Assembly (NCBI RefSeq): GCF_963675165.1
Contig: NC_087384.1
Span: 4,643,182 to 4,707,181 of the forward strand
Length of the DNA: 64,000 nt
Source of the DNA: Halichondria panicea
Lineage: Eukaryota > Porifera > Demospongiae > Suberitida > Halichondriidae
Direction of reading: 5' to 3'
In this document: positions 2,179-58,228 of the stretch, in pieces
Position numbering within the stretch: the stretch's first letter is position 1
Layout of the letters: every line of letters starts with the position of its first letter
Translations under genes and position numbers: made by a program
Notes under the pieces: model-generated
Told to the model about the DNA's origin: nothing
What the model saw: only the letters and a program-made list of their open reading frames with translations
Databases searched by the model: none

Positions 2179-3819
2179 TCAAGTGGTTGATGGTAACAAT
2201 GGTGCGTATTCACTTGGGTCACTGATACGATGTGGAAGGGCTTCGTTATCTGTAGATGATCCTGTCTGGTGTGTAACTTGTCTTCGGCAGCAGCAGCTGA
2301 AACCACATCGGCTTGTGAAGGCAGATATCATCCACGAAGAAATGAACAATATTATGTACATACCTATAACGATAATCACCATAAAAATCCATCCAATATT
2401 CTTTAATACCACGCGGTAATTGTACCAAGATGACCCAATCGCCAATACTAGTAAAAGAAAAGAATCGAAATAGTTGTAACGGTCCTTCTTGTATGGTCGT
2501 AGGCCAAGGATAATAGCAGGTGTAATAATGAATATCATTTGATACACAACATGTTGGTACGCCTGAGCACTAAAGGCTATGAATATTATTTTCAGCAGTA
2601 GGGGGACTCCAGCAAACCATCGATAGTCCCTGGTACCAGGTATTGTGCCGTTCTTGAAATAGCCCTGTGTGATGTTTGCTAGCTCGTGAATTAGAACACA
2701 TTTAATTTTGCAGGAAAAGAGACATCTCCGAAAGAAACGATTCTGGTAAAATAGCAGAAACACTGCCGATAGAAGTACCATGGTAACAGTGAGGATTGAT
2801 GCTAGTATAGCAAGTGGAATGTATGTGCCCACATTGAAATCAGCTGCGAAGAAGAGAGTGTATGTTACATTTCCGTATTTGTCATATAAAGGTATTGGCT
2901 TTAAAAGGCTAATTGAAATTGAACAAAACTTGGTGTAGGATAGTAAGAAGAAGGTTGCAAATGCATTCACTACAGGACCTTTTAGTTCCCAGCGTCTTCG
3001 AAACCTTGCTAAGCACTTATGAAATGGCTTCCAGCAAATTACAATTATCTTGCATCCTCTGTCGTGGAGTGAAATGAGCAAGTAGACAGCCAAAGTGAAA
3101 GTGATTGGATATAGAGCTTCTAGGTACTCCAATGCTACGACTGTGAGTGTGCTCATGTGCTCACTGATGCAAAATGAAGGAATTAGAAACATGAAGAAGT
3201 CCAAATTAAATAGCCCCACAAAATCAGCGGAAAACTTATAAAAGGAATAAGAGTAGGTATATCCGCTTATATCAAATGGAAAATTACTACACATTGTCAC
3301 GTTTAGCACCTGAGCCATCAAAACAAAGCTATTCAGAACTGGATAGGCAAAATTTACCCGGAACACAATAACAATCACACAGATCAAAGTCAATGGTACT
3401 GTAAGCCTGACAAAGAAGAGTAACCATCCTAAAGGTTGTGGCATGCATTCCTTACACTCTTTATAGTAAGAGAAGACGTACGGCCGGTCCCAGTCCTGGT
3501 TGGCAGTGACTACAGAGCAGCCCTGTGCGATTGAGAGGACCACACATCTCCTCATCTAGCTTTGATACATCAAAGGGTACGTCCATGAATTTTGATAGTC
3601 GACTTTTCGTGTTGTATGGGCATCTGTGTCATTGTTGTAAGTTAAGCAGAAACCGTCTAATATTTTTATCTTGTTTGTCACATTCGAGCACTGCAATATA
3701 GTATTGATCTGTTGTCCACACTCACACTTGTTTGCTTGGCGTACAAACCATGTTGGGCATGCTTGACTGGACACTAGAACTACCTGTAGTACATTCAAAA
3801 TCACTCCAAGTATTGTCAT
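2179..3819 (-). pseudogene. Polytopic membrane protein array, copy A (frame-disrupted)
   Basis: Near-identical to intact copy B (8201-9856) but broken. On the - strand it starts at ATG 3819 with a signal peptide and the first Cys-rich part. A 13-bp deletion near 3622 (compared with copy B) shifts the frame and leads to TAG at 3556-3558. A 4-bp insertion near 3480 restores the original frame for the rest, including the hydrophobic segments and the C-terminal tail. The lost part is the second half of the ectodomain. The two indels nearly compensate, so only the stop between them prevents a full-length product. A gene model could begin at 3555 but would lack a signal peptide, so decay is more likely. 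Sequencing error is possible but two independent indels make it less so. Confidence 0.85.
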
Positions 3820-4649
3820 CTTTAAAGCTTAACTAAGATTCTGTTTTTCTCTTTTGATTTCTATGTGTTTTTTAAAGCAACTACATGCAGCTGCTTGTTA
3901 AAGCATGCAAACACTAAAAGTGTCATTGATGCAAAAGCACTGATAATATTGAAACCTAATACTGAAGTATTACTATCTATCGCCTAATCGTACTGTTAGT
4001 TTATTGTTAGTAAGAGCCAGGTGTTTTTGTTTGATCTCTTTTTAGAACCAATACTATGGTATGCAAAATATCAAAACACCAAGTATGCATGATTATACGG
4101 GTATAGGCATGCACACATGCAGCCGTACCGGGTATATTTCGAGGGTATAAACTTTCGCAGAAGGACCAGGACCGTTAGAAAGGTTTTTACTCGTGGAATA
4201 GTTACTGTAACCTTCTGCAGCATGCGGTATTAAATTTGTGGGTATATAAGTGTTCATGATACGTGCTAATAATGAGCGAAAACCATGAACATTTATACCC
4301 TCGAAATATACACGCTATATATATACTAGCTAGCTAGAGAGTGATGATTACTATTATAAAATTTGTTCATGTTATTCGATGTGCCTCCCCAGAAGCCGTT
4401 AGCTGCTATATCTTGGAGGTAGGGCCGCTCTCAGACCCTTCTTATACTTCCCGGCATGGTGGTGATGCAGATGCTCTTCAGTTCTTAAGTATAGAGTATA
4501 TACAGACTATATACTTGACTTGTTACATATCTATTATGTATATATACATGTAATCGTATTATGAAACTTACAGACCTCCTTGACTGTTGCAACGGTATGG
4601 CTCTAATTTGGCAAGCAAACGCCTCCTGACAAAAGGCGATGGTCGTGCT
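3820..4649. other. 5' flank of array copy A (duplicated at 9857-10985)
   Basis: No coding region is supported. Long stretches match the flank of copy B, for example GCAACTACATGCAGCTGCTTG near 3880 and near 9900, and the CCTCCCCAGAAGCC region near 4385 and near 10732. Both flanks are AT-rich and carry short fold-back words. No promoter motif could be assigned. Confidence 0.5.
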
Positions 4650-4937
4650 TAGTTGGGCGTGGCCCGACTGTCCCTAACGGGAGGTCGGGTTGCAAGCCTA
4701 TCTGGGATTTGTTCTGCATCATTATATAACACTGCCATGAATATTCTTCTTCTCAAAGTGGGTGTTAACCGACATGATGGCGTGGATAAACCACAGCATA
4801 CTGCATGTAGTTTCGCAACTAGATGCAAACGGAAGTGTAACCAAGCACGTGAAAAATGCTGCAATCTGATAGGGCAAATCCCAGATAGGCTTGCAACCCG
4901 ACCTCCCGTCAGGAGACAGTCGAGTCACGCCCAACTA
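4650..4937. mobile_element. 288-bp TIR element, TAG...CTA ends, 9-bp TSD
   Basis: Terminal inverted repeats of about 70 bp: left TAGTTGGGCGTGGCCCGACT, right ending CACGCCCAACTA, including a long match around ATCTGGGATTTG. It is flanked by the perfect 9-bp duplication GGTCGTGCT (4641-4649 and 4938-4946). The paralogous flank of copy B near 10987-11000 has a single GGTCGTGCT followed by CTGAGCCGC and no element, which is an empty-site proof of insertion. Short open frames inside are products of the inverted repeats. Confidence 0.92.
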
Positions 4938-5059
4938 GGTCGTGCTCTGAGCCGCTGGTACTTCCTCATTATACTCCCACTGAGCTATTTCAGCTCCACC
5001 CACAGTGCCACGCCCCATATATGGTCAAGATGGGCGTTTATTGACAAAGGCCACAATCG

Positions 5060-5900: not shown

Positions 5901-6930
5901 CCTCCTCTGCCAGTAAATTGATCACTTCATTTAATAGTGCATGTGTATATACTATAGTGGGATGCATGGAGTTACATTTGATGACTACTCAGTCAAATTC
6001 AGTTGAAATGTGATAGTTTCCTAGTTATTATACTATTATAATAATTATTGTATAGATCAATGCTTTCACCATAAACATCCACTGTACATGTAAATTGTAA
6101 GCATAAATGTGCAGTGCATGCATGTCGTTGATATTTAAATATCCTGTGTGTTTATCATAATTATGAAGTTCTTTTTTCTACATGTGCTACGTGTGTTCTG
6201 TAAACAGCTAAAAAATGTAATCAAGTGGTTGGTGGTAACAATGGTACATATTCCTTTGGGTCGCTGATGCGATGTGGAAGAGTTCGTTATCTGTAGATGA
6301 TCCTGTCAGGTGTTTAACTCGTCTTCCGCGGTAACAGCTGAAATCATGGCTAGTGAGGGCAGATATCATCCATGAAATGAACGATAATTATGACGTACAG
6401 CATTAGTATTCCTAGAGCAATAATCCATAAAAAAATCCATCCAATATTCTTGATTGCCTCGCGGTAAATGTATAAAGATAACCCTATTGCAAACACTAGT
6501 AGAAGAAAAACATCGAAATAGTTGTATATATATATTGTATATTCTTGTATGGTCGTAAGCCAAGGATGATAGCAGGTGTAATAATTAACTAAGATGATTT
6601 GGTACACAATAAGGTGGTACGCCTGAGTACCATTGGCTATGAATATTATTCTCAGCAGTAGGTAGACTCCATAATTATTATAGTGTTGTTATTTTCTGTG
6701 CATGGGATTTTTTATGATGATAGTTGACTTTTTGTGTTGTATGCATGGATAAGCTAGGCTCCAAAATGCTCTGTGTCATTGTTGTAAGTTATACAGAAAC
6801 TATTTACTTGTTTGTCAACACTCGAGCACTGCAATATTATAGTATTGATCTCTGCACTCACACTTGTTTGCTTGGCGTATAAACCATGTTGCCTGATTCT
6901 TTACTGGACACTATAGAACTACCTGTCCTG

Positions 6931-7315: not shown

Positions 7316-8200
7316 CTTCAATAGAAGAAAGGTCGAGCACTCATCAACTTACAATACTACTAGAAGCCTATAGAAGCTTTTACTTGCACTTCATTGATCA
7401 GTGAGCAGCTGTAGCAGCCTATAGACAGACACACACACAAACACACTACCGTACCTCACCGCTTGCGCACATGCATGCGCAAACCGAGGCATAATAATAA
7501 TTATTGAAAGCCAATATACCCTATAAAATTATTGGTATGCAAGAACTTTAAATAAACAAGGCCATGCAAAGTTAATTTGTAGTTTTTCAGGCTCTCGCTC
7601 TTGGAATTTGGTAGCTTTCCATGTGGCCCCCCAAAAACACGAACTTGCGTATGTTTTTTAAGTCATGAATATAATTATGACTATTTAAATTTATACACTT
7701 TCGCTTTTTGAAATTGAGGGTGTTGAATATCATTGTCATTTTATCATTGTTGCCTCATTCCGCTTGCTATTTTAGCCTGAGAAACTACAAATTGACTTTT
7801 GCATGGACTATAATTATAAGTACATGTCCCTTCATAGTTTAATTCTGCATGTATACCGTGAAGCTATGTATAGGCTTGGGCACATGCAGTAAGTGCATAT
7901 ATAGGCTACTAAAAACGTACAGTTCTTTTATGCTCACTATAATTATATCCCCACAACCCACCACACTCCATCCTCAGTTATGTCAAGGGTTTAAAGCCCC
8001 TGGCCCGAATTAAAGCTTTCACTATAAACAGCAGCACTGTACATAAGGTATATGTCCAATGGCATGCATGCAGTATATGTTTATGCATGTTGTTGATATT
8101 TTTGTTGCTAAAAGAACACCTTACTGTTTATTAAATAATCTAAGCATGTATCTACTTTTACTAGTACTATAGTGTACTCCGCTAACAGCAGTTAATGTAA
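7316..8200. other. Spacer; start of segmental duplication unit II
   Basis: No gene is supported. From about 7785 on the sequence is the second copy of the unit seen from about 300, with the shared words CTGCATGTATACCGTGAAGC and CTATGTATAGGCTTGGGC. The last 220 bp are the 3' flank of array copy B. AATAATTATTA-type words are frequent, as throughout the window. Confidence 0.45.
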
Positions 8201-9856
8201 TCAAGTGGTTGGTGGTAACAACGGTGTGTATTCGCTTGGGTCACTGATACGATGTGGAAGGGCTTCGTTATCTGTAGACGATCCTGTCGGGTGTGCAACT
8301 CGTCTTCGGCAGCAGAAGCTAAAACCACATTGGCTTGTGAAGGCAGATATCATCCATGAAATAAACAATATTATGTACAGTATTAGTATACCTATAACGA
8401 TAATCACCGCAAAAATCCATCCAATATTCTTTAATACCTCACGGTAATTGTACCAAGATAACCCCATTGCCAATACTAGTGAAAGAAAAGAATCGAAATA
8501 GTTGTAACGATCCTTCTTGTATGGTCGTAGGCCAAGGATAATAGCAGGTGTAATAATGAATATCATTTGGTACACAATAAGGTGGTATGCCTGAGCACCA
8601 AAGGCTATGAATATTATTCTCAGCAGTAGGTAGACTCCAGCAAACCATCGACAGTCCCTAGTACCAGGTGTTGTGCCATTCTTGAAATAGCCCTGTGTGA
8701 TGTTTGCTAGCTCGTGAATTAGAACACATTTGATTTTGCAGGAAAAGAGGCATCTCTGAAAGAAACAATTCTGGTAAAATAGCAAAAACACTGCCGGTAG
8801 AAGTACCATGGTAACAGTGAGGATTGATGCTAGTATAGCAAGTGGAATGTATGTGCCCACATTGAAATCAGCTGCGAAGAAGAGAGTGTATGTTACATTT
8901 CCGTATTTGTCGTATAAAGGTATTGGCTTAAACAGGCTAATTGAAATTGAACAAAACTTGGTGTAGGATAGTAAGAAGAAGGTTGCAAATGCATTTACTA
9001 CAGGACCTTTTAGTTCCCAGCGTCTTCGAAACCTTGCTAAGCACTTGTGAAATGGCCTCCAGCAAATCACAATTATCTCGCATCCTCTGTCGTGGAGTGA
9101 AATGAGCAAGTAGATAGCCAAAGTGAAAGCGATTGGATACAGAGCTTCTAGGTACTCTAATGCTACGACTGTGAGTGTGCTCATGTGCTCACTGATGCAA
9201 AATGAAGGAATTAGAAACATGAAGAAGTCCAAATTAAATAGCCCCACAAAATCAGCGGAAAACTTATAAAAGGAATAAGAGTAGGTATATCCGCTTATAT
9301 CAAATGGGTAATTACTACACATTGTCACGTTTAGCACCTGAGCCATCAAAACGAAGCTATTCAGAACTGGAGAGGCAAAATTTATTCGGAACACAATAAC
9401 AATCACACAGATCAAAGTCAATGGTACTGTAAGCCTGACAAAGAAGAGTAACCATCCTAAAGGTTGTGGCATGCATTCCTTACACTCTTTATAGTAAGAG
9501 AAGACGGCTGGTCCCAGTCCTGGTTGGCAGCGACTACAGAGCAGCCCTGTGCGATTGAGAGGACCACACATCTCCTCATCTAGCTTTGATACATCAGAGG
9601 GTACATCCATGAATTTTGATAGTTGACTTTTCGTGTTGTATGGGCAGGCTCCAAAATGCTCTGTGTCATTGTTGTAAGTTAAGCAGAAACCATCTAATAT
9701 TTTTATCTTGTTTGTCACATTCGAGCACTGCAATATAGTATTGATCTGTTGTCCACACTCACACTTGTTTGCTTGGCGTACAAACCATGTTGGGCATGCT
9801 TGACTTGACACTAGAACTACCTGTAGTACAATCAAAATCACTCCAAGTATTGTCAT
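8201..9856 (-). CDS. Polytopic membrane protein, array copy B (intact)
   Basis: Intronless, 551 residues from ATG 9856; an in-frame TTG two codons upstream is less likely. Residues 1-19 form a signal peptide (MTILGVILIVLQVVLVSSQ). The ectodomain, about 20-134, has eleven Cys (21, 32, 34, 44, 58, 71, 97, 107, 110, 125, 128), N-glycosylation sequons (NVT, NDT, NRT) and a C-x2-C-x3-GLGP block. About ten hydrophobic segments follow (near 136-156, 163-180, 203-221, 228-254, 286-308, 336-361, 404-424, 426-443, 453-470, 478-501), with the conserved loop LGLRPYKKDRYNYFD before the ninth. The basic, Cys-rich, Ser-rich tail ends EYTPLLPPTT. A plasma-membrane receptor or transporter-like role is inferred from topology only. 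Similar multi-pass proteins are recalled from sponge genomes; no named family is claimed. Confidence 0.9.
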   Translation of the reverse strand: MTILGVILIVLQVVLVSSQACPTWFVRQANKCECGQQINTILQCSNVTNKIKILDGFCLTYNNDTEHFGACPYNTKSQLSKFMDVPSDVSKLDEEMCGPLNRTGLLCSRCQPGLGPAVFSYYKECKECMPQPLGWLLFFVRLTVPLTLICVIVIVFRINFASPVLNSFVLMAQVLNVTMCSNYPFDISGYTYSYSFYKFSADFVGLFNLDFFMFLIPSFCISEHMSTLTVVALEYLEALYPIAFTLAIYLLISLHDRGCEIIVICWRPFHKCLARFRRRWELKGPVVNAFATFFLLSYTKFCSISISLFKPIPLYDKYGNVTYTLFFAADFNVGTYIPLAILASILTVTMVLLPAVFLLFYQNCFFQRCLFSCKIKCVLIHELANITQGYFKNGTTPGTRDCRWFAGVYLLLRIIFIAFGAQAYHLIVYQMIFIITPAIILGLRPYKKDRYNYFDSFLSLVLAMGLSWYNYREVLKNIGWIFAVIIVIGILILYIILFISWMISAFTSQCGFSFCCRRRVAHPTGSSTDNEALPHRISDPSEYTPLLPPTT

Positions 9857-11371
9857 CTTCAAAGCTTAACTATAAAAAAGGATTCTGTTTTTTTTAAAGC
9901 AACTACATGCAGCTGCTTGCTGAAGCATGCAAACACTAAAAGTGTCACTGAATGCAAAAGCACTGATTATATTTGAAACCTAATACTGAATTATTTCTAT
10001 CGTACTGTTAGTTTATTCTGTTTTCTAGTGTTTTTTTAAAGCAACTACATGCAGCTGCTTGCTGAAGCATGCAAACACTAAAAGTGTCATTGAATGCAAA
10101 AGCACTGATTATATTGAAACCTAATACTCTATCGTACTGTTAGTTTATTGTTAGTAAGATCCGGTGTTTTTATTTGATCTCTTTTTAGAACCAACACTAT
10201 GAAAATACTGGTATGCAAAAATACACAAACACCAAGTATTCAGTGAAACCTACAGTATTCTATGATTATACGGGTGTAGGCATGCACACATGCAGCCGTA
10301 CCGGGTATATTTCGGGTATAAACTTTCGCAGAAGGACCGTTAGAAAGGTTTTCTACTCGTGGAATAGCAGCCTTCTGCAGCATGCGGTATTAAATTAGTG
10401 GGTATAAGTGTTCATGATACATGCTTAATCAGCGAAAACCGCGAATATTTATGCCCTCGAAATGTACACGCAATATACGGTACAGTAAGTGTATTTATAT
10501 TGGAAACCTTTACACCAAGGGTGTATAATTATAGAAAAGAGGGCATGCAACTCGCCGTCATAGCATCGAAATTCTTCATAGGTGTCTATTTAGCTACATG
10601 ATTGACCTTTGACCCTCGATCAGAGAGCCAAAATGTTGTACAGAGCATAAATTATAGTTAGCTAGCTAGAGAGTGATGATTATTATTATAAAATTTTTGT
10701 TTATGCTGAATTCTTGATACATTCATGTGCCTCCCCAGAAGCCATTAGCTGCTATATCTTGGAGGTAGGGCCGCTCTCAGACCCTTCCTATACTTTCATG
10801 GTGGTGATGCAGATGCTCTTCAGTTCTTAAGTAGAGTATACAGACTATTCAATTGACTTGTTACACATCTGTTATGTAATCGTATTTTAAGTAGCTGTAT
10901 GAAACTTACCAGTTACTTCATACCTCCTTGACTGTTGCAATGGTATGGCTCTAATTTGGCAAGCAAACGCCTCCTGACAAGAGGCGATGGTCGTGCTCTG
11001 AGCCGCTAGTACGTACTTCCTCACTATGCTCCCACTGAGTTTGAAACTTGATGACGTAGTCTTCTCTGTCTATAACTCATCGCTGGAAGTCCTGGACTCA
11101 CTAGCATGATCCATAGCTAGCTACACTAGATTCCGAAATACAGAAATAATAATTATGAAATACTCTGTAAACTGCAAAAGTTCGTGTCACTCTTATTATC
11201 TAGTACTCCATGAATATCATTCGAATTTCGATGAGTGGGTAGATGCTGAGTTGCATGCCCTCTCCAGCCTTTTGTGGTCGGTATACCCATTGTAAGGGAC
11301 TTACTAAATTTTCAAGCTATAAATATTTAAAGCTGGTGTTACAAATAGACTACTACATGCATGTGTATGAC
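9857..11371. other. 5' flank of array copy B (duplicated flank)
   Basis: Matches the flank of copy A (3820-4649 and 4940-5060) with indels. A short internal tandem duplication repeats the GCAACTACATGCAGCTGCTTG region near 9900 and near 10040. A segment present here but absent from the A flank spans about 10475-10665 and contains an AGGGCATGCAACT word shared with the TIR element at 42719-43354. The frames at 10213-10601 are not supported as genes. Confidence 0.45.
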
Positions 11372-12900: not shown

Positions 12901-13222
12901 CCTCCTCTGCCAGTAAATTTATCACTTCATTTAATAGTGCATGTGTATATACTATAGTGGGATGCAAGAGTTACATTTGATGACTACTCAGTCAAATTCA
13001 GTTGAAATGTGATAGTTTCCTAGTTATTATACTATAATAATATTGTATAGATCAATGCTCTCACCATAAACATCCACTGCATGTACATGTAAATTGTAAG
13101 CATAAATGCAGTGCATGCAGTCGTTCATATTTTTGTGTTTAAATATCCTGTGTGTTTATCATAATTATGAAGTTTTTTTCTACATGTGCTACGTGTGTTC
13201 TGCAAACAGCTAAAAAATGTTA

Positions 13223-14881
13223 TCAAGTGGTTGGTGGTAACAACGGTGCATATTCCTTTGGGTCGCTGATTCGATGTGGAAGAGTTTCATTATCTGTAGA
13301 TGATCCTGTCAGGTGTGTAACTTGTCTTCTGCGGCAGCAGCTGAAATCATGGCTAGTGAGGGCAGATATCAGTAATGAAATGAACAATATAACGTACAGT
13401 ATTACTATTCCTAAAACGTTAATCCATAAAAAAATCCGTCCAATATTCTGGAATGCCTCACGATCATTATATAAAGATAACCCTATCGCAAACACTAGTA
13501 GAAGAAAAGCATCAAAATAGTTGTAACGGTCTTTCTTGTACGGTCGTAGGCCAAGGATGATAGCAGGTGTAATAATTAAAATAATTTGGTACACAATAAG
13601 GTGGTACGCCTGTGCACCAATGGCTATGAATATTATTCTCAGCAGTAGGTAGACTCCAGCAAACCATCGACAGTCCCTAGTACCAGGTGTTGTGCCGTTC
13701 TTGAAATAGCCCTGTGTGATGTTTGCTAGCTCGTGAATTAGAACACATTTGATTTTGCAGGAAAAAAGACATCTCTGAAAGAAACGATTTTGATAGAATA
13801 GCAGAAATACTGCTGGTAGGAATACCATGGTAACACTGATGATTGATGAGAGTATAGCGAGTGGAATATATGTGCCCAAATTGAAATCAGCTGCGAAGAA
13901 GAGAGTGTATGTAAAATGTCCGTGTTTGTCATATAAAGGTACTGTTTTTAAGAGGCTTAAAGAAATCGAGCAAAACCTGCTGTAGGATAGTAAAAAGAAG
14001 GTTGTAAATGCATTCACTACAGGACCATTTAGTTCCCAGCGTCTCCGAAACCTTGCTAAGCACTTGTGAAATGGCCTCCAGCAAATTACAATTATCTTGC
14101 ATCCTCTGTCGTGGAGTGAAATGAACAAGTAGACAACCAAAGTGAAAGTGATTGGATATAGAGCTTCTAGGTACTCCAATGCTACGACTGTAAGTGTGCT
14201 CATGTGCTTACTGATGCAAAATGAAGGAATTAGAAACATAAAGAAGTCCAAATTGAATAGCCCCACAAAATCAGCGGCAAATTTATAAAAGGAATAAGAG
14301 GGTGTATATCCGTTTATATCAAATGGATAATTTCTACACAATATCGTGTTTATAACCTGAGCCATCAAAACAAAGCTATTCAGAACTGGAGAGGCGATAT
14401 TTATCCGGAACACAATAACAATAATACAGAACAAAGTCAATGGTACTGTAAGCCTGACAAAGAAGAGTAACCATCCTAAAGGTTGTGGCATGCATTCCTT
14501 ACACTCTTTGTAGTAAGAGAAGACAGCTGGTCCCAGTCCAGGTTGGCAGTTACTACAGAGCAGTCCTGTGCGATTGAGAGGACCACACATCTCCTCATCT
14601 AGCTTTGATACATCAGAGGGTACGTCCATGAATTTTGATAGTCGACTATTTGTGTTGTATGGGCAGCGTCCAAGATGCTCTGTGTCATTATTGTAAGTTA
14701 GGCAGAATCCATCTATTAGTTTTATCTTGTTTGTCAGATTCGAGCACTGCAATATAGTATTGATCGGTTGTCCACACTCACACTTGTTTGCTTGGCGTAC
14801 AAACCATGTTGGGCATGCTTGGCTGGACGCTAGAACTACTTGTAGTACTATCACAAGTACTCCAAGTATCGTCATCTCCAT
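13223..14881 (-). CDS. Polytopic membrane protein, array copy C (intact)
   Basis: Intronless, 552 residues from ATG 14881 (MEMTILGVLVIVLQVVLASS); an inner ATG at 14875 aligns with the other copies. The frame stays open upstream to 14932, adding a hydrophobic stretch, but the signal peptide at 14881 or 14875 and alignment with the family favour the later start. All ectodomain Cys and the hydrophobic segment pattern are kept. It differs from copy B mainly in segments two and three (for example INGYTPSYSFYKFAADF) and in the tail, which ends EYAPLLPPTT. Its 5' flank, 14882-17110, is duplicated at 58229-61110 beside copy G, so C and G are sister copies. Confidence 0.9.
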   Translation of the reverse strand: MEMTILGVLVIVLQVVLASSQACPTWFVRQANKCECGQPINTILQCSNLTNKIKLIDGFCLTYNNDTEHLGRCPYNTNSRLSKFMDVPSDVSKLDEEMCGPLNRTGLLCSNCQPGLGPAVFSYYKECKECMPQPLGWLLFFVRLTVPLTLFCIIVIVFRINIASPVLNSFVLMAQVINTILCRNYPFDINGYTPSYSFYKFAADFVGLFNLDFFMFLIPSFCISKHMSTLTVVALEYLEALYPITFTLVVYLFISLHDRGCKIIVICWRPFHKCLARFRRRWELNGPVVNAFTTFFLLSYSRFCSISLSLLKTVPLYDKHGHFTYTLFFAADFNLGTYIPLAILSSIISVTMVFLPAVFLLFYQNRFFQRCLFSCKIKCVLIHELANITQGYFKNGTTPGTRDCRWFAGVYLLLRIIFIAIGAQAYHLIVYQIILIITPAIILGLRPYKKDRYNYFDAFLLLVFAIGLSLYNDREAFQNIGRIFLWINVLGIVILYVILFISLLISALTSHDFSCCRRRQVTHLTGSSTDNETLPHRISDPKEYAPLLPPTT

Positions 14882-24310: not shown

Positions 24311-24361
24311 TCATGCATTTACATGTCTTTGTGTGTTCCGCTAACAGCAGTTAATGTATAA

Positions 24362-36026: not shown

Positions 36027-36095
36027 GGTGCGTATTCGCTTGGGTCACTGATACGATGTAGAAGGGCTTCGTTATCTGTACACGTTCTGGTGTGC
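36027..36095 (-). pseudogene. Array relic: 3' terminal fragment only
   Basis: GTGCGTATTCGCTTGGGTCA and the following ATACGATGTAGAAGGGCTTC match the 3' coding end (tail region) of the membrane-protein genes, then the match ends. It shows that another array copy once lay here or that a tail fragment was moved. Confidence 0.75.
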
Positions 36096-39175: not shown

Positions 39176-39483
39176 ACAATGCATTGTCTAACGTTCTAAA
39201 TTGTAAGGATAACAAACTGAAACCAGTTTTTAAATGCTGAAAAAATAATTTTGAAAACCAACAATAAAAGTACATCGATCCCCTTATGTAGATTCTGAAA
39301 TTACATGCATACAACACTGTACATATATAATGTTGTAAGGTAGAATTTCCATGCAATGTATGTTATTTTTGTGTTTAAAAACAAACCCTGAGTGTTTGTC
39401 ATAATAATTACAGTGAGCATAATACAGTAATAGTAATTGTTCTACATGTGCTACGTATATTCTACTAACAGCTGAAAATGTAT

Positions 39484-44670: not shown

Positions 44671-45632
44671 CTATACATTTCCGTATTTGTCATATAAAGG
44701 TATTGGCTTCAAGAGGTTTAAAGAAATCGAGCAAAACCTGCTGTAGGATAGTAAAAACAAAGTTGCAAATGCATTCACTACAGGAGCTTTTAGTTCCCAG
44801 CGCCTTCGAAACCTTGCTAAGCACTTGTGAAATGGCCTCCAGCAAATTACAATTATCTTGCATCCTCTGTCGTGGAGTGAAATGAAGTACACAACCAAAG
44901 TGAAAAGGATTGGATATAGAGCTGCTAGGTACTCCATTGCTACTACTGTCAGTGTGCTCATGTGCTCACTGATACAAAATGAAGGAATTAGGAACATGAA
45001 GAAGTCCAAATTGAATAGCCCCATAAAATCAGCGACAAATTTATAGAAGGAATAAGAAGGTGTATATCCGCTTATAGCAAATGGGTCGTTTCTACACAAT
45101 GCTGTGTTTAGCACCTGAGCCATAAAAACAAAGCTATTCAGAACTGGAGAGGCGATATTTATCTGGAACACAATAACAATAACACAGATCAAAGTCAATG
45201 GTACTGTAAGCCTGACAAAGAAGAGTAACCATCCTAAAGGCTGTAGCATGCATTCCTTACATCTTTGTAGTACGAGAAGACGGCCTGTCCCAGTCCTGGT
45301 TGGCAGTGACTACAGAGCAGCTCTGTGCGATTGAGAGGACCACACATCTCCTCATATAGCTTTGATAAATCAGAGGGTACATCCATGAGTTGTGATAGTC
45401 GACTATTTGTGTTGTATGGGCAGGCTCCAAAATGCTCTATATCATTGTTGTAGGTTAAGCAGAAACTCTCTAATATTTCTGTCTTGTTTGTCACATTCGA
45501 GCACTGCAATATAGTATTGATCTGTTGTCCACACTCACACTTGTTTGCTTGGCGTATAAACCATGTTGGGCATGTTTGGCTAGACACCAGAACTACCTGT
45601 AGTAAGATCACAATCACTCTGAGTATCGTCAT
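44671..45632 (-). pseudogene. Array copy F, 3'-truncated and frameshifted
   Basis: Starts at ATG 45632 (MTILRVIVILLQVVLVSS) and follows copy E closely. A 1-bp deletion near 45261 shifts the frame in FSYYKECKEC; the frame resumes from about 45249 to 44671. The gene stops abruptly at YDKYGNV, so four of the hydrophobic segments and the tail are missing. It is a partial duplicate of copy E, located after HEATR6 exon 9. Confidence 0.87.
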
Positions 45633-46583
45633 ATTCAAGCTTTTGACTAGGAGAAAGAAAGACCTGCACTCATTAATTAATGTTCTGATAAACTGAAACC
45701 GCGAGTTATCAAAATTAATGGTGAAACAATAATATTTAAAAACCAACATTAAAAGTACCGGTATAATTATATGCAAGAACTCAAAAGTATTATAATTATA
45801 CATGCACTAATTACTGTACGTATTACTAGAATGTTTTCCGAGAATCAAAAATAATTATGTGAACTTTGCGAGTTTCTGCTGAATTGACTCATTCGCAAAG
45901 GTTTTTCACTCGCATAATAGTTATTGGTATAAGTGCATGCATGTTTATAATATAATTATTCAACCCACCCCCCTGCTTCGACAGCGAACCGCATAACGTT
46001 CCTATACTTACGGTCAACGATACTTGCATGGTTGGCAGTCGTATGGCCAAGGCCAATATTTAATTTACGGCAGGAAGTACTTCCTGTTGTTCAATTGTAC
46101 CTGCGGTTTCAAGCTCAATTTATGCACAAACTTTAGCTTAGCATAACACTCTATTCCTTGAACGTACATGCAATACAACTGAATATTCTTTATTCTTATT
46201 CTATCCTCTTCATATAACAATATATATATCACAAGTTAAACACAGAGTCTTGCTCAACACAAAAGGTTTTTGTGCAGCCACCAAAACCTTGCGGTTTTGA
46301 CCTACCTGCACATTAGCTGATGCAAAATCAGTTCCCCATCCCATACCCAGTCCAGACTTGGAATAGAACTAATTCTAAGGTTGATGCTGATGTTTTCCAA
46401 AATTTGAACTGTTCTACCGCATATTCATTACGGTAGGGTATGTCAAAGTGGGCAAGGTTTTACACACATACCACATGGAATTCCAAGAGTTGACCATTAT
46501 TTGTTTGATCTGGTAAGCTATGAAAACAATGCACAATGTCATGCAGCATATACTGTGTATAATAGAATACAGAATCCAGCAAA
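45633..46583. other. Spacer between copy F and the transposase locus
   Basis: No gene is supported. AT-rich with a TATATATATC stretch near 46225. CAGTCGTATGGCCAAGGC at about 46036-46053 has a one-mismatch inverted partner at about 52341-52358, beyond the far side of the 46584-51842 coding region, and may mark the body of the element. Confidence 0.4.
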
Positions 46584-49500
46584 ATGAGATCTGCTAGAGA
46601 CGTTTCTAGCCAAAGAAGAGAGCCACGGGATGTGAATTCAGCAGTACATCCAGATCAACTATGCGAACAATGTGCTCTGTGCAAGAAGACAGACTTTTCC
46701 AAGTATTCCCACCCCAAATCCTGGAAGAATCCTTCACTACTCCAGCAACTCCAGGTCGCTGAGCCGTTTCTCAACATACAGCCTGAAAGCTGCATTTGCT
46801 TGCTGTGTAGGCGAGATGTGAGTAAAGTCAGTGATGTTAGCTTCTCACCTAGATGGAGAAGGTGTACAAATATAGTCAAATTGTGTTATATTCCCGATTG
46901 TCTAAACACTGACATTAAAGTTTCTAAGTCAGTAAATGTACAAGAGCTAGCACTATTTTTTCCAGTGGGAGACATAGATGATGCTACTGTTTCTACTGTG
47001 GACGGTACTGATGATATACCACTTTGCTCACATCACTATATGCAATGGTATAAGCATACGCATTCAGCACATAGTAACTGTAAAACGTGTGGTAAAAAAT
47101 TCAATAAGTACAGCAAAAGCCGTCCTGTACCAGAACCAGAACTACTTCAGCGTTTCTTAAACACCAACACTGAATTCAGTGACATCTTACACCCAGGTGA
47201 TCGTGTATGCTATGTTGGCTATAAGTCACATCTTGTCGCTGTAAAGCAAATGAACTATGAATTACTAACTGTAAGCACTGATGCAGGCCTGACAGTTGAT
47301 ATAAAGCAGAATCTTCCTACAACGTTAGAAACATGGGAAAATGTAATCGACTATACTGCTCGATCACTAGCTGTTAGAGTAGGCGAAGCCCTTCTAAAAC
47401 AGACTGCAATACTACTACCACGATTGTATGCGACTTTCAAGCTGGAAGTAGACTCGGTAGCCAAAAATATTAAGGTAGACAAGGAGGACCAAGATTTTCC
47501 TAGTAATGCTTGGGTAAGAAACTCTCTCTCATCTCTGCTACAGCATCACATGGCTTACAGATGTACCATTCGAAAGTATGGAACGCTACTATACCGCCAA
47601 GAGGGTGATCTTGTACATGCCCTTACTGTAGCTCTTGGGCAAGGCAACACAACTTTACAGTCTATTGATGACAATGCTACATGTATGCTTACAAAAGTAT
47701 GTGAGAATATTAATAACAAGCTACATGATCAGGCCAACAAATTGATTACAACTGACACGTACTGTAAAGCCACACAATATTGAACAATTCAATGTGGATG
47801 CATTTATTGATGACCTAGATCCTACAATCTGGAAGGCTGTATGTTTAATAACTCAACCACCGAACAAAAAACTAACGTACGTCCGAAAAGTCAGAACAGT
47901 ATTTGCTCTATGCCAGATACTTTTCACTATCAATCGGCAATGCTCTTTCCCTCTACATACACTCATAACAGACGCTATTGATATTTGTGGAGGATCCATT
48001 CGATTAAAAACCTTACTGAATCGCCTAGGTGTTTGTGCAAGCAGTGAAACACATGCTAGGTACGTACAATACAGAGTTGAGATGAGGCAAAGGGATGGGC
48101 CATTGGATGGACATATACTAGACTGTCCTATCATTGTTTCAGCTGATAATTTAGACTACCAGCAAAGTTTTGCTTGTGTCTACAGTGGCAACCAAAGTAT
48201 TGGCTGGCACGGTACCACTGTACAAATCTGCTTATCAAATTCTAAGAACCCACAGCAATGGAGACCAGTGCAGATATCCAACAGCCTACATGTACCACTA
48301 CCAGCCTTGTAAAAAGGGCATACTCAACACGTTCTCCTTATAAAACCCAAACTCTAAACTCTCCTAAACCTAAGAAAGTTAGACGAAGTAGAACTGGGGT
48401 TGAAACCCGAGGCACAACACAGTCAACAACAGCTGCTGCTATTACTATAGCCGCACAGATACAAGTAACTGATATGCAAACCATCTCAATGGAAAACTTT
48501 GAGTTAAAAACGGAAGAAAAACATTCACTGACGATATTAGGTGAAATCTGCGAGCAGTACATTGTGCTAAAATTGGCAAACGAACAGAATCCAGATTCAC
48601 TAGTTGGTATCCAGCAGTACTATTGTTTGTCACAGAATGTACCTTCTCCCGAGAAAACCTCAATAATTTACTATAAAGTTCTAGATGAAAAGTGTGACAC
48701 CAAAGAAACTCTACTCAGCATCATTAATGATCTCTACACAGAATTTATACTGTCTGGTAAGAAAACACATGTAATACTGGAGGGTGACCAAGCTACCTAC
48801 GAGAGATTGCACTCAATCAGAGTAGAATATGGGAATGAAAGCAAATGGCTCATCATCTTTCCAGGTGATTGGCATTTCTTAAAGAATTATCAGGAGGTAT
48901 TGATCAAGATATACTTCGATGCAGGTCTGAGTGACCTAGCAAGATCTAGTGGCTACCTGCCAAGGTCAATAGGTACTAACTTCAAACGTACTCACCGTTT
49001 TCTCCTTGAAGCATGGGAGGCACTGTACAGAGTCCTGTTGAGATACTTTCTCTCCAAGCAAGCTCCCAGTGAGTTCTTACAACAAGTATCAGCACTGCTT
49101 CAGAACTTTCCTCCTTCAGAGAACCAAGCAAACACTCACAGAAACCTGAATGAATTGATAGAAACAATTAGAGAGATAGGTAGTGATGCATCTGACTTCG
49201 AAAGCTACATGAGCAATGAATCAGAACAGAATCCCACCCTCAAGTTTTGGTTGCAATTTTTGTTCAAAGATTATTTAGCATATCTTGCACTATACTTGGC
49301 AATGCGAAGTGGGAACTGGGATTTGCGAATGGCAGCTATAAAATTGATGGGACCCCTCTTTACTGCCTTTGACCGGCCCAAGTACTCAAAGCTTATACCT
49401 CTTCACATAAAAGAGATGTTATCTGTCCCTGCTGATATTCTCTCTCACCTGAAAGAAGGCAGGTTCACTGTCAGTATCCTCGGGCGAGCCTGTCATTCGA

Positions 49501-51842
49501 TCGGTATTGATGAGGCGCACGAAATGTGCATCAACAAGGACTGCAAGGAGTATATCACTAGACCATCAGCAGAGAACATGAGTCGACTGGCGTCATTTTT
49601 ACCTACACGAGCAAAAGCAATCAAAAATTTAGAAACACAGATTTTTGCAGATAGTAAAGCTAAGAAGCCCGAGAAACAAGTTACCAATTTACACACAAGT
49701 GACCCAGAGAGCAAAAAGCATGAAGCCAATGTTAAGGTTCAAGTTCTCAAGATACACACTGACAACAAAGTACTTCCCACCTACCAGTCTCAGTTAACAG
49801 CTCTAAGCCATCTATTTAAAACTCAATCAGTTAGACCAGAACAAGCTAATGACCTTTCCAACTTCAGAGAGATAGGTCTTAATACTCTCAAACAGTACAT
49901 TGAGTACTACATTCTTAGAACACCGAGTGTTAAGCCACCAAAACACAGAAAGACGTTATTAACCTTTACTGAAAAACACGCATGACAAAAGAAAGGCTCT
50001 CAAGTAGAAAAGGAGCGGAAACTTCAGCTTGAAGTATGGAAAAAACGTGTCTCCTTTACTGTCACAACTGGTATTAAAGACAACATGTATTACAAACAGT
50101 GCATTGAACTCCCCCGAGCAATAGCCACTATTGATGGAAAGCCTATTAAAGGTGCGAAGGCAAACATAACCAAGGTATATGAGAAGCGATACAAGCACGT
50201 AACACCCCCAATTTTTACAACAGCACTAAAAGATGGGTGGTCACCAGACGCTGTGATTACTGAAGGCATGTTCCTGATAAACATCACCCCTTGGAGTTCT
50301 CACAGGACAATGGGAGACTATGCTGACTTTTTACTAAAACAGCACATCCTCCCTCATTTTAGAAATGAGTCAACATTAGAAGTTCACTTACTTTTTGATA
50401 ATCCTAACTGCCAACAGTACAGTCCAAAGTACTTTGAACGACTTCATAGAGATGAGATGAACCAGATACCAGACGATCACAGCTGCAGTGACTTCACAGC
50501 AGACACGATAATACCTCTCAAGTGGAGACAGAATGTGTTGAACTGTAGAAAATGCAAGCGACAATTAGTACGATTTATTTCGGAATACATTCTTCAGAAA
50601 ATTAGGTACAGACTTAAGCCCACCCAAAGGTTTGTAACAGCTGGAGGTTTACAAGGAAGTATGGCAGAGAAGGCAATGTTTGTTACACATCAAACAGAAC
50701 CCACAGTCGATGAAAGGCTAACCAGTAATGCTGAGGAGAGTGATACTCGAATATGGCTACACGTTCTTCACTCTGCAGGTACAAGAAAGTTTGTGCTAAG
50801 CCCTGATACAGATGTGTACCACATTGGGATGACAATAATTGCAGAAACTCAGCTAGATATAGTCGTACGGTTAAGCCCATTTAATTCTATTGAACAACGG
50901 TTACTTGACTTACCAGCTCTTCTGAGGAGCTTCAAGAACGATCCAGATTTGTCTGCAGTGGAAGAAAGAAAAATAGCACCAATCATCCAAACATTATTTA
51001 TTGCCACTGGTTGCGACTACATCTCTTTTTTCACTGGTCTAGGAAAAACCACCTTCTTAAATACATTGTTTGAATACACGGAGTTTATAACATCAAACTC
51101 AACAAGTACTCCTGGTACACTCACAGACGAACCAAATGGGTTTTTGTCTTTCTTGAGGCTAGTGGGGTGTGCCTATTTTAAGAAGCATAAGTCAGCCTTC
51201 TTACCTTCTTTTCCAACTCCAATGACTTTGTTCAACTCAGTCCAGTCAACTAGCGATCACCAACAGCGACATGAACAATGGCTTGACCTCATTCGAGACA
51301 GAATATGGATAAGAATTCAGTACGAGGAGGACATGACACCTTCACATGAAGCACTGTTTCGACATTGGAAGAGGAGTAGCTGGGTTTCATCCGTCTGGAA
51401 CCAAGCAACATCAAACCACATTGTCCATCCACCACTTGAAGACTTCGGCTGGAAAAAGCCTGATCCAACAACTCTCCTGATAGATTGGGATAGTGAAAGT
51501 AATTTGTCTCGAATCAGAGAACAAGTGGCGCTCATTCGAAAAGGCTGTGGCTGTAAAACAGGATGCTCCTCAGCACGCTGTAAATGCAAGAAACAGAAAG
51601 GTTACTGTGGTCCTGGCTGCAAATGTACTGGATGCACTAACCTCCCTGTTGAAGCTCTTGCAACAGAGCAGGAAGACAGTGATAGTGAAGTAAGAACTAA
51701 TAACGAACGTGATGAAGATTTGGATCTTGAAGTGAGCAGCAGCGATGGTAGTCACTTGGATGTTGAAGTCAACAAACTCATGTACGACATCTTTGGGGAC
51801 TCTGAAAGTGATGATTCACACAGCATGGGAGTCGGTTTCTGA
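46584..51842 (+). pseudogene. Academ-like transposase gene, lightly broken
   Basis: About 5.3 kb without introns. Four open frames follow one another: 46584-47783, 47794-48312 (other frame), 48258-49985 and 50085-51842 (same frame as the third, separated by one TGA at 49983-49985). Two frameshifts and one nonsense change would split one protein of about 1,750 residues. The N-terminal part has Cys pairs typical of Zn ribbons (CEQCALC, CLLC, CKTCGKKF). The middle has EGDQATY and PGDWHFLKN, candidate acidic catalytic positions. The C-terminal part has XPG/FEN-like motifs and a CXC domain. Academ transposons are described as encoding a transposase with an XPG nuclease region, so this assignment is the best fit but is inference. 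Low damage suggests recent inactivation or assembly errors. Confidence 0.7.
50085..51842 (+). CDS. XPG/FEN-like nuclease region plus CXC domain ORF
   Basis: The longest uninterrupted part of the transposase locus, 585 residues from an in-frame ATG; coding similarity in the same frame continues upstream to the TGA at 49985. EESDTRIWLHVL and SPDTDVYHIG (about 50730-50825) resemble the XPG-I acidic motifs. ATGCDYISFFTGLGKTTFLN (about 51005-51065) resembles the helix-hairpin-helix after them. Near the end lies a Cys-rich block with GCGCKTGCSSARCKCKKQKG and CGPGCKCTGCTN, the CXC signature of tesmin/TSO1 proteins, which binds DNA through zinc. An acidic Ser/Asp tail follows. If translated alone it would lack the presumed transposase core. 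Confidence 0.7.
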   Translation: MYYKQCIELPRAIATIDGKPIKGAKANITKVYEKRYKHVTPPIFTTALKDGWSPDAVITEGMFLINITPWSSHRTMGDYADFLLKQHILPHFRNESTLEVHLLFDNPNCQQYSPKYFERLHRDEMNQIPDDHSCSDFTADTIIPLKWRQNVLNCRKCKRQLVRFISEYILQKIRYRLKPTQRFVTAGGLQGSMAEKAMFVTHQTEPTVDERLTSNAEESDTRIWLHVLHSAGTRKFVLSPDTDVYHIGMTIIAETQLDIVVRLSPFNSIEQRLLDLPALLRSFKNDPDLSAVEERKIAPIIQTLFIATGCDYISFFTGLGKTTFLNTLFEYTEFITSNSTSTPGTLTDEPNGFLSFLRLVGCAYFKKHKSAFLPSFPTPMTLFNSVQSTSDHQQRHEQWLDLIRDRIWIRIQYEEDMTPSHEALFRHWKRSSWVSSVWNQATSNHIVHPPLEDFGWKKPDPTTLLIDWDSESNLSRIREQVALIRKGCGCKTGCSSARCKCKKQKGYCGPGCKCTGCTNLPVEALATEQEDSDSEVRTNNERDEDLDLEVSSSDGSHLDVEVNKLMYDIFGDSESDDSHSMGVGF

Positions 51843-56205: not shown

Positions 56206-56289
56206 GTGTGTGCAACTCTCCCTATAATTATTAGCCCATGCACTGTTAAAGTAATTTTCCTTCGATACTTAAAAGCCAAAATTGGTTTT

Positions 56290-56362
56290 ATAATGGTTAG
56301 GCGAACAACTAGTTGTTCGCCTAATCGTTATAAAAGCGAAAACTCGGCCTGGGATCGAGGCG
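56290..56362. repeat. Fragment of the TAG...CTA element family
   Basis: GGTTAGGCGAACAACTAGTT and its inverse form a hairpin, followed by the right-end words TTATAAAAGCGAAAACTCGG and CCTGGGATCGAGGC. It corresponds to the terminal repeat of the 36378-37465 element with the interior lost. A further single end lies at about 61907-61960. Confidence 0.75.
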
Positions 56363-56582
56363 CTAGGTTTACCACTTGATCAATTACATGTACTTCTTCT
56401 AACAGATTATGCTTTCACTACAAACATCACGTACTGTACATTGTCTGCAGTGCATGCATATTGTTGATATTTTTGTAAAAATAAATGAAGAAACACTGAG
56501 TGTTTATCATAATTGCAGTAAGCATAATATAGTTACGTTTCTACATGTGCTACGTGTGTTCTGCTAACAGCAGGTAATGTAA

Positions 56583-58228
56583 TCAAGTGGTTGGTGGAAA
56601 CAACGGTGCGTATTCGCTTGGGTCACTGATACGATGTGGAAGAGTTTCGTTATTTGTGGACAGTCCTGTCGGATGTGTAACTCGTCTTTGGTGGCAGCAG
56701 CTAAAACCACACCGACTGGTAAGAGCAGATATCATCCATGAAATGAACAATACCATGTACAGCATTAGTATACCTATAGCGATAATCACTAAAAAAAACC
56801 CATCTAATATTCTTGAACACCTCACGATAATTGTATAAAGATAACCCTATCGCAAACACTAGTAGAAGAAAAACATCAAAATAGTTGTAACGGTCTTTCT
56901 TGTATGGTCGAAGGCCAAGGATAATGACAGGTGTAATAATGAAGACCATTTGGTACACAATATTGTGGTATGCCTGAGAACCAAAGGCTATGAATATTAT
57001 TCTCAACAGTAGGTAGACTCCAGCAAACCATCGACAGTCCCTAGTACCAGGTGTTGTGCCGTTCTTGAATAGCCCTGTGTGATGTTTGCTAGCTCGTGAA
57101 TTAGAACACATTTGATTTTGCAAAAATAGAGACATCTCTGAAAGAAACGATTCTGGTAGAATAGCTGAAACATTGCTGGTAGGAATACCGTGATAACAAT
57201 AATGATTGATGATATTATAGCTAGTGGAATATATGTGCCCACATTGAAATCGGCTGCAAAGAAGAGGGTGTATGTTACATTTCCGTATTTGTCATATAAA
57301 GGTACTGGCTTTAAAAGGCTTAAAGAAATCGAGCAAAACCTGCTATAGGACAGTAAAAAGAAGGTTACAAATTCATTCACTACAGAGCCTTTTAGTCTCC
57401 GAAACCTTGTTAAGCACTTGTGAAAAGGCCTCCAGCAAATCACAATTATCTTACATCCTTTGTCGTGGAGTAAAATAAACATTGTCAAGTAGACAGCCAA
57501 AGTAAAAGCGATTGGATATAGAGCTGCTAGGTACTCCATTGCTACGACTGTAAGTGTACTCGTGTGCTCACTGATGCAAAATGAAGGAATTAGGAACATA
57601 AAGAAGTCCAAATTGAATAGCCCCACAAAATCAGCGGCAAATTTATAAATGGAATAAGAGTGGGTATATCCGCTGATATCAAATGGGTAATTTCTACACA
57701 ATACAGTGTTTAGCACCTGAGCGATCAAAACAAAGCTATTCAGAACTGGAGAGGCAAAATTTATCCGGAACACAATCACAATAACACAAATCAAAGTCAA
57801 TGGTATTGTAAGCCTGACAAAGAAGAGTAGCCATCCTAAAGGCTGTGGCATGCATTTCTTACACTCTTTGTAGTAAGAGAAGACGGCCGGTCCCAGTCCT
57901 GGTTGACAGTGACTATAGAGCAGTCCTGTGCGATTGAGAGGACCACACATCTCTTCATCAAACTTTGATACATCAGAGGGTACATCCATGAGTTGTGATA
58001 GTCGACTGGGCAGCGTCCAAGATGCTCTGTGTCATTGTTGTAAGTTAGGCAGAATCCATCTAATAGTTTTATCTTTTTTGTCACATTCGAGCACTGCAAT
58101 ATAGTATTGATCGGTTGTCCGCACTCACACTTGTTTGTTTTGTGTACAAACCATGTTGGGCATTCTTGACTGGACGCTAGAACTACTTGTAGTACTGTTA
58201 CAAGTACTCCAAGTATCGTCATTTCCAT
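56583..58228 (-). pseudogene. Polytopic membrane protein array, copy G (broken)
   Basis: Starts at ATG 58228 (MEMTILGVLVTVLQVVLASS) like sister copy C. A 13-bp deletion near 58007 shifts the frame in the ectodomain. The frame is open again from 57989 to about 57075, where a missing A in CTTGAAATAG shifts it once more; another shift near 56790 precedes the last segment and the tail (EYAPLFPPTT). A deletion near 57396 also removes part of the RRRWEL loop, and an insertion near 57478 adds residues. The gene cannot give a full product. A conserved flank to 61110 matches the flank of copy C. Confidence 0.88.

Follow-up and report, generated by a model that had tools for sequence, protein, structure and literature searches.

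A one-strand array of single-exon, multi-pass membrane protein genes in the sponge Halichondria panicea, with a candidate role in recognition

What kind of gene family leaves many copies of one membrane protein, intact and decayed, along a single strand of a sponge genome? We considered a stretch of 64,000 nucleotides from Halichondria panicea (contig NC_087384.1, positions 4,643,182 to 4,707,181), hereafter the window. The original prediction was of a birth-and-death receptor family, perhaps for recognition.

Gene copies in the window and the wider array

Copies and relics of the gene span positions 2179-59669 of the window, and every one lies on the minus strand. The pieces were detected at the protein level by tblastn with E-values from 0 to 1e-4. 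Pairwise DNA identity among them ranges from 72 to 96%. Four copies are intact. That at 8201-9856 encodes 551 amino acids, with a signal-peptide-like start, an 11-cysteine ectodomain, ten hydrophobic segments and a C-terminal P-x-R-x-x-x-P-x-x-Y tail. The copies at 24362-26014 and 39484-41136 are open frames of 550 residues each. The fourth, at 13223-14905, encodes 550 residues counted from the ATG at 14875 or 560 from an upstream ATG. Two full-length copies are broken. At 2179-3819, the ectodomain contains frameshifts and an in-frame stop, with the frame restored from about residue 117. At 56583-58222, there are frameshifts and stops. A further copy, at 44671-45632, is truncated (residues 1-321) and carries one frameshift.

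To this point tblastn and DNA comparison agree with the original inventory, strand included. However, it listed three relics and we found four relic stretches. The piece at 38243-39180 covers residues 13-325 approximately, has several stops and is 72-76% identical to other copies at the DNA level. At 6221-6926, residues from about 12 to 80 and 407-551 remain, the middle is missing, and the downstream flank matches the one at the 13223 copy. A C-terminal tail (residues 524-549) was located by tblastn at 36014-36091. Two pieces of gene start at 59310-59669 are the weakest (protein E 1e-4).

The genes had been described as intronless. The coding sequence is indeed one exon; a leader intron 5' of the ATG is possible. 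A YAG occurs within 25 bases of the ATG in 14 of 16 genes of the wider array. The same is true of 2814 of 5000 random 25-mers from the window, so this is a weak lead only. Retro-copying is disfavoured as the origin of the single-exon genes because the array is all on one strand.

The window genes are part of an array that extends over 270 kb of contig C8 (4.455-4.725 Mb), all on one strand. Counted apart from the four window relics, this array has 28 listed loci, of which 16 are intact and 12 broken or partial. At least 115 loci of the family, here called the short branch, are spread over the 131-Mb genome. Silicatein-like exons in this genome point to a demosponge. In a tree of the arrays, clades are formed by C8 (support 1.0), C5a (0.91) and C5b (1.0). 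C10 is also a clade, with support of only 0.178. Six sequences grouped as C7 are not a clade, and C10 nests inside them. We conclude that this is a lineage-expanded tandem family of surface-type proteins, each with one coding exon. The array grew by tandem duplication, and many copies were lost through frameshift and truncation.

Most of the window (1646-60710) has a second copy upstream, at about 4.5718-4.6330 Mb of C8. We compared blocks other than upstream 4611300-4629500. The compared blocks are 95-100% identical, with indels between them. Most are 97-100% identical; the left edge reaches only about 95-96%. The duplicates also differ by large insertions. Two of the four genes intact in the window are broken upstream: the counterparts of 8201-9856 (99.3% identical) and 24362-26014 (99.6%) are frameshifted. 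Those of 13223-14905 and 39484-41136 are intact as well. The upstream counterpart of 44671-45632 matches across the truncation point (98.5%). Segmental duplication probably also contributed to array growth. The two segments could be haplotypes, a point to which we return.

Protein layout and distant relatives

Family members share a signal-peptide-like start, a Cys-rich ectodomain, ten hydrophobic segments and a tail with a common motif. Twelve Cys columns are conserved, C220 included. The count of hydrophobic segments agrees with the original prediction of about ten, but the third (203-221), which holds an invariant L-D and C220, probably does not cross the membrane. Charge distribution favours nine crossings over ten. 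With the N-terminus outside, the basic loop 254-285 and the tail would also come to lie outside if the number were even; ten crossings are therefore disfavoured. The predicted loops follow the positive-inside pattern. An N-x-S/T sequon in the supposedly cytoplasmic loop 361-402, found in 58 of 68 proteins, speaks against the assumed topology. The tail motif P-x-R-x-x-x-P-x-x-Y is present in 63 of 68 short-branch proteins, compared with 17 of 13,600 shuffled tails. In most window-type copies the tail ends in E-Y-x-P-L-L, which resembles sorting signals of the acidic dileucine or Y-x-x-hydrophobic type. Structure prediction for seven window sequences gave a mean pLDDT of 31.7 and no usable fold.

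Searches of Pfam and PDB found no significant match over the membrane module. In PDB sequence searches one protein returned nothing, and two profiles returned only matches with E 1.4 or worse. A Pfam scan of 21 short-branch members, at E up to 10, listed 11 families and no GPCR or insect-receptor family. Among these members 10 match DUF7630 (PF24633) weakly, with a best E of 0.014. Two window members score 14.2 and 12.8 bits, below the cut-off of 27. A second group of proteins, the long branch, is just above the Pfam cut-off for DUF7630 in four loci and below it in two that were rescanned. The long branch occupies at least 176 places in the same genome; together the branches amount to roughly 290 or more gene copies.

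Alignment of the two modules with hhalign gave a probability of 99.6% (E 9.9e-24; 392 columns; about 20% identity). BLASTP also links the branches (E 2e-6). These alignments indicate that both share a homologous multi-pass module over its length. Consistent with this, the long-branch module has R-x-G-x-L-C-x-x-C, N-L-D and L-L-S-Y, like the short. An [N/D]-P-x-x-Y tail is found in 6 of 13 long-branch stretches, some of which end before the tail. Long-branch genes have long open frames, and many of them lie in runs along contig C6. Unlike the short branch, the sole long-branch member scanned in full carries right-handed beta-helix or Chlam_PMP repeats (PF13229, E 1.3e-18) in an ectodomain several hundred residues long. 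No relatives were confirmed in the viral contigs searched. No paper among the literature matches listed deals with this membrane-protein family, and the name DUF7630 is in no paper of the literature searched.

Regional variation, selection and gene conversion

The segment two/three loop and the last two hydrophobic segments had been named as the places where variation among intact copies is concentrated. The latter part of the claim stands. Segments 9-10 vary above the gene mean in all four arrays tested (2.60 times in C8; 1.41, 1.75 and 2.24 times in the others). Column permutations were as high in 0, 24, 0 and 0 of 2000 cases. Under a stricter circular-shift control, which gives a weaker signal, 11 of 532, 81 of 621, 49 of 598 and 7 of 624 shifts were as high. 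The 2/3 loop is rejected as a hypervariable region of the C8 array, at 1.16 times the mean with 513 of 2000 permutations as high. Its variation is elevated in the three other arrays. For this loop 164 of 532, 2 of 621, 53 of 598 and 31 of 624 circular shifts were as high.

At the other extreme, the predicted cytoplasmic positions 363-404 have the lowest variation of seven regions in all but one of the four arrays (0.27, 0.30 and 0.32 times the mean). The exception is C5b, where the value is 0.50 and two regions are lower. Many recognition receptors have a variable ectodomain. Here, by contrast, the Cys-rich ectodomain varies less than the gene as a whole (0.75-0.91 times the mean). Outer loops are more variable than inner loops in all five sets compared (0, 0, 1, 25 and 108 of 5000 permutations as high), as occurs in many membrane proteins. 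Outer helix halves exceed inner halves in C8 only (84 of 5000); the other four sets gave 282, 969, 3169 and 1009 of 5000.

The intact genes are under purifying selection. For the 16 intact C8 genes dN/dS is 0.34 by a counting method and 0.45 under M0. By region it is 0.01 at 444-454, 0.08 at segment 3, 0.57 at TM9 and 0.77 at TM10; neither of the last two helices exceeds 1. Divergence thus differs by region, and the uniform neutral divergence that would have spoken against a receptor family was not seen. M8 fits better than M8a for C8 and C5a, both as whole sets and when split, and for C10core and C5b as whole sets. In the first part of C8, M2a gave no significant improvement over M1a (p 0.079). 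In each of the four arrays the PHI test detected recombination, with 0 of 1000 permutations giving so low a value. Hence, the M8 test can be inflated.

Synonymous divergence is itself uneven, with dS between 0.14 and 0.65 depending on the position in the gene. Over the final 110 codons it is high (0.31-0.65), and TM4, 254-285 and 363-422 form low patches (0.14-0.17). Internal peaks occur at loop 2/3 (0.45), segment 3 (0.51) and TM5 (0.43), and high variation often coincides with high dS. The nearly identical core of the original prediction is therefore partly a product of homogenisation. Homology between near-full-length window copies, with pairs 8201/2179 and 13223/56583 set aside, stops 0-19 bases 5' of the ATG and 19-118 bases 3' of the stop. 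Their coding DNA is 86-90% identical. We conclude that the copies are mosaics produced by recombination within the coding sequence. Gene conversion limited in this way can add to a pattern of conserved core and variable end that resembles the result of selection alone. The birth-and-death claim is well supported by one-strand arrays, the array-specific clades C8, C5a and C5b, purifying selection on intact copies and a near-identical segment, possibly the other haplotype, with differing broken genes. That account needs to include gene conversion as well.

A candidate receptor and its alternatives

Our best guess, from sequence features, is that the array encodes recognition or chemosensory receptors. 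Variable outer loops and last helices above conserved cytoplasmic loops and a tail motif fit this reading. Each protein would span the membrane nine times and act as a receptor. Ligand would be contacted at the outer face by the segment two/three loop and the last helices, and the Cys-rich domain would form a conserved cap. The conserved cytoplasmic loops (363-404 and an RPYK turn) and the P-x-R-x-x-x-P-x-x-Y tail could couple all copies to one intracellular machinery, for trafficking or signalling. The diverse copies might then form a repertoire for microbes, food, or self versus non-self. Taken whole, this account of a duplicating, converting and decaying nine-pass repertoire falls a little short of an even chance.

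The proteins may instead be channels, transporters or lipid-handling proteins with a Cys-rich lumenal cap, perhaps endosomal, with selection acting on the number of copies and not on their diversity. A multi-pass module, cytoplasmic loops among the most constrained parts and the sorting-signal-like tail of window copies would all suit such a role. The third segment, with its invariant L-D and C220, might enter the membrane and turn back, as re-entrant elements of channels do. The fungal Flc/Pkd2 TRP-like family (PF06011) has a signal peptide, a lumenal domain, about nine segments and a cytoplasmic tail, and is alike in general layout, nothing more. PF06011 is absent from the Pfam matches of the 21 members (E up to 10) and gave no match in the genome, where the control was likewise silent. 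Pfam, NCBIfam and PDB sequence searches gave no significant match to a transporter or channel, and the housekeeping-transporter match that would have counted against the original prediction did not appear in these sequence searches. Pure dosage selection would also not be expected to leave the same regions variable in several arrays. We consider this explanation unlikely. An ordinary multigene family without diversifying function, whose last helices and loops are relaxed and whose conversion halts at the edges of homology, is slightly less likely still. Homology that ends close to the ATG and stop, the uneven dS with its high 3' end, and significant PHI tests speak in its favour. However, conversion alone does not give the sharp regional differences in dN/dS (0.01 to 0.77), and separate clades vary at the same regions. 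The internal dS peaks indicate that an edge effect explains only part of the pattern.

Part of the array may be an assembly artefact, with the upstream duplicate representing the other haplotype set in tandem. Identity of 97-100% is in the range expected for alleles, and most duplicate blocks fall within it and differ by large insertions. The left edge is less similar than this, and the proposal touches that duplicate only, not the array remainder or the other arrays. We regard it as somewhat unlikely.

Little is settled about the ways in which animals without nerves, sponges among them, detect food, microbes and kin. An uncharacterised superfamily of this size with a conserved intracellular tail motif is a concrete candidate for such sensing. 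Returning to the receptor reading, a broader form is that this non-GPCR, roughly nine-pass class, with nearly 300 or more loci and either short Cys-rich or long beta-helix ectodomains, might be one of the main sensory or recognition repertoires of this demosponge. Diversity would lie in the outer loop and last helices, with output through one shared tail motif. We think this rather doubtful.

Vertebrate odorant and insect chemoreceptor families form tandem arrays with many pseudogenes, gene conversion and variable helices, and odorant receptors have a single coding exon. The sponge array shares all of these features. It differs in its ten hydrophobic segments, its Cys-rich ectodomain and the lack of GPCR or insect-receptor matches in Pfam. 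Tandem families are described in other sponges, namely metabotropic GABA receptors in Ephydatia (PMC7385117) and scavenger-receptor-domain genes in Amphimedon (PMC3447736). The passages describing these sets concern other families and do not mention the present module. In those passages both sets are, like the present array, big clusters or tandem arrays of demosponge surface-protein genes.

Array copies and a near-identical counterpart upstream

From 2179 to 59669, the window (C8:4643182–4707181) holds four intact frames (550–560 aa) of one gene, together with two copies that are full-length but broken, one that is truncated and four relics, all encoded on the - strand. The one-strand array of intact and decayed copies put forward in the original prediction is real and far beyond chance. 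Near-full-length copies share 86–90% DNA identity, rising to 94% between 2179 and 8201. The truncated copy is 86–96% identical to these, and the relics are 72–94% identical to other copies. We searched the genome (131 Mb in 39 contigs) with a window protein, which gave at least 81 rows (79 of 429 candidates scored). On C8, the contig carrying the window, all matches listed at 4.455–4.725 Mb are on the - strand. Rows merged by script gave 28 listed loci, a count that leaves out the four window relics. Of the 28, 16 run the full length with no stop codon, and the remaining 12 are partial or broken. Genes for CUE-domain and RRM proteins lie to the left of the array. To the right, at C8:4736597 on the opposite strand, is a relative from the family's long branch, described below.

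Seven loci fetched from upstream were collinear with window stretches. Identity was 95.6% for the counterpart of 2084–4016, 99.3% for 8104–10056, 99.9% for 13126–15075, 99.6% for 24265–26113, 99.3% for 39388–41336, 98.5% for 44575–46398 and 99.6% for 57514–58523. An extra left-edge copy between both segments (L001) is 96.1% identical to the window copy, slightly closer than the upstream counterpart. Further blocks of 95–100% identity are spread across 1646–60710. With upstream DNA compared except for 4611300–4629500, window 27525–34365 and two shorter stretches had no match at the settings used. Counterparts of the intact 8201 and 24362 genes carry small frameshifting indels, and those of the 13223 and 39484 genes are still intact. 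The broken counterparts reflect either gene death after recent duplication or tandem-assembled haplotypes.

Other frames lie within the array. A single-exon protein kinase frame (29629–30459, - strand; Pkinase E 3e-22) and two adjacent frames with no significant Pfam match (30970–32964, + strand) sit in the stretch 27525–34365. At 46584–51842 (+ strand), a mobile-element-like block includes one frame that matches DUF6589 (E 8e-15) and another that matches the CXC domain weakly.

Gene conversion was assessed with the PHI statistic, which was lower than all 1000 permutations in each of four arrays. Homology between near-full-length window copies ends 0–19 bases before the ATG and 19–118 after the stop, excluding pairs 8201/2179 and 13223/56583. 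In the 5′ flank, pairs exceeding the 99th percentile of random pairs numbered 5 of 21 at -20 to -170, 3 of 21 at -170 to -320 and 0 of 21 at -320 to -470. In the 3′ flank, 7 of 15 pairs did so at +40 to +190, but none of 15 at +190 to +340. Turnover of flanks by insertions is a possible cause of this loss of homology. Homogenisation of the coding parts is nonetheless probable, because neutral flanks at dS near 0.25 ought to still align. Along C8 genes, dS varies from 0.14 to 0.65. Hence, the nearly identical core noted originally is due in part to constraint, and the rest is ascribed to conversion. A YAG occurs within 25 bases before the ATG in 14 of 16 C8 genes (10 of 16 at 9–16 bases), compared with 2814 of 5000 (56%) random 25-mers. 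Placed where DNA homology ends, it gives a weak lead to a leader intron, whose 3′ splice site it could be.

Two branches of one family

A C5 member and a C10 member, used as genome queries, each returned at least 71 rows, with 70 of 388 candidates scored for the first and 71 of 426 for the second. Further arrays of the window-type, or short-branch, genes are on C5 at 1.43–1.57 Mb (mostly +) and 2.16–2.20 Mb (-), C10 at 4.86–4.94 Mb (both strands) and C7 at 4.40–4.42 Mb (-). Merging rows of the three genome searches gives at least 115 short-branch loci, broken ones included. In a tree of 68 fetched proteins, the array groups C8, C5a and C5b are clades with support of 1.0, 0.91 and 1.0. C10 is also a clade, with support of just 0.178; the six proteins grouped as C7 are not a clade and have C10 nested inside.

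The window-type protein has no significant match to Pfam, NCBIfam or PDB sequences. DUF7630 matched 10 of 21 short-branch members weakly (best E 0.014). Scanning the genome with DUF7630 picked out four further loci, at 27.6–27.9 bits (cut-off 27), in open frames of 717–1479 aa. The long-branch locus scanned in full encodes Beta_helix (E 1.3e-18), Chlam_PMP repeats and then a multi-pass module; DUF7630 scored 22.0 bits on rescan. In a second locus, where the fetched stretch is incomplete, Chlam_PMP falls slightly below cut-off and the same module is present. By sequence comparison this module is homologous to that of the window (BLASTP E 2e-6; profile-profile against the short branch, probability 99.6%, E 9.9e-24, 392 columns).

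Of two long-branch module queries, the first gave at least 98 rows, with 98 of 422 candidates scored, and the second at least 102 rows (102 of 401); 24 of these overlap. Hence, the long branch occupies at least 176 places, 128 of which fall in open frames at least 1000 aa long; the single fully scanned member has a beta-helix/PMP-repeat ectodomain and DUF7630. Among matches listed, C6 has 77 places, many in runs, C11 22, C4 17 and C14 11, plus others. None of these overlaps a listed short-branch locus, and the branches together comprise at least 291 loci. Amphimedon has many uncharacterised proteins of a similar kind, and such proteins are also present in cnidarians. No paper on this family was among the open-access matches listed.

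Topology, selection and a candidate receptor role

Hydropathy of the 68 short-branch proteins indicates a signal-like start, a Cys-rich ectodomain (20–131) and ten hydrophobic segments. K/R content is 20% in loop 254–285, 15% in 361–402 and 27% in 444–453, against 8% in 310–337. If the N-terminus is outside and 203–221 does not cross, the predicted topology is nine crossings and a cytoplasmic tail, because the basic-loop charges then fit. N-glycosylation sequons occur in loop 310–337 of 34 of 68 proteins. Counter to inside placement, 58 of 68 have them in 361–402. Conservation reaches at least 96% of proteins at each of eleven Cys columns in the ectodomain and at C220. With twelve in all, an even number, C220 may lie outside and form a disulphide; parity is no more than a hint, because ectodomain totals vary by group (10–11 in C8, as many as 18 in C10) and some are even. 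A P-x-R-x-x-x-P-x-x-Y tail motif occurs in 63 of 68 proteins but only 17 of 13,600 shuffled tails. Among long-branch tails such as those of L080, L083 and L091, some have a P-P-x-Y-like motif of WW-domain type; D-P-D-R-Y-I-T-P-P-I-like ends resemble the short-branch motif. Structure prediction for a window-type protein gave pLDDT 31.7, too low for a usable fold.

For 16 intact C8 genes, overall dN/dS was 0.34. By region, values were 0.01 (444–454), 0.08 (segment 3), 0.12 (cytoplasmic 363–404), 0.26 (loop 2/3), 0.33 (ectodomain), 0.57 (TM9) and 0.77 (TM10). We compared amino-acid difference with the mean in C8, C5a, C10core (a set from C10) and C5b, respectively. Ratios for TM9–10 were 2.60, 1.41, 1.75 and 2.24; column permutations as high numbered 0, 24, 0 and 0 of 2000, and circular shifts 11/532, 81/621, 49/598 and 7/624. 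For loop 2/3, ratios were 1.16, 2.37, 1.85 and 2.22, with 513, 0, 4 and 3 of 2000 permutations and 164/532, 2/621, 53/598 and 31/624 shifts as high. The ectodomain varied at 0.75–0.91 times the mean. Outer loops varied more than inner loops in five sets (0, 0, 1, 25 and 108 of 5000 permutations as high). For outer against inner helix halves, the excess was clear in C8 only (84 of 5000; others 282, 969, 3169 and 1009).

Site models were run with custom scripts, and recombination can inflate the results. M8 was favoured over M8a in whole C8 (2dlnL 37) and, when C8 was divided at residue 420 and each part given its own tree, in both parts (p 0.007 and 0.0006). The same was true of C5a (whole, p 5e-16; split, 0.0015 and 2e-7), C10core (p 0.006) and C5b (p 0.0009). 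M2a did not improve significantly on M1a in the first of the two C8 parts (p 0.079).

These patterns fit a surface receptor repertoire, the most likely reading of the sequences. Such a receptor would have a conserved cap, a variable part formed by the outer loop and last helices, and conserved cytoplasmic loops and tail. A channel, a transporter or plain relaxed constraint could possibly produce the same variation.

Elsewhere in the genome, Wnt matches occur at three places (C3, C6 and C12), which identifies the host as an animal. An active-site pattern search gave eight matches, compared with two for the reversed control pattern. Five of six loci fetched for it have C-G-[A/S]-S-Y-A-F in a cathepsin-like setting, with the Cys-to-Ser change typical of the silicatein active site; these five silicatein-like exons are at C2 656913–667886 and C6 200201–204452, and they make a siliceous demosponge the probable host. 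In the nuclear assembly, C1:5280527–5280718 (L075) is a COX1-like fragment with two TGA codons, perhaps a mitochondrial insertion.
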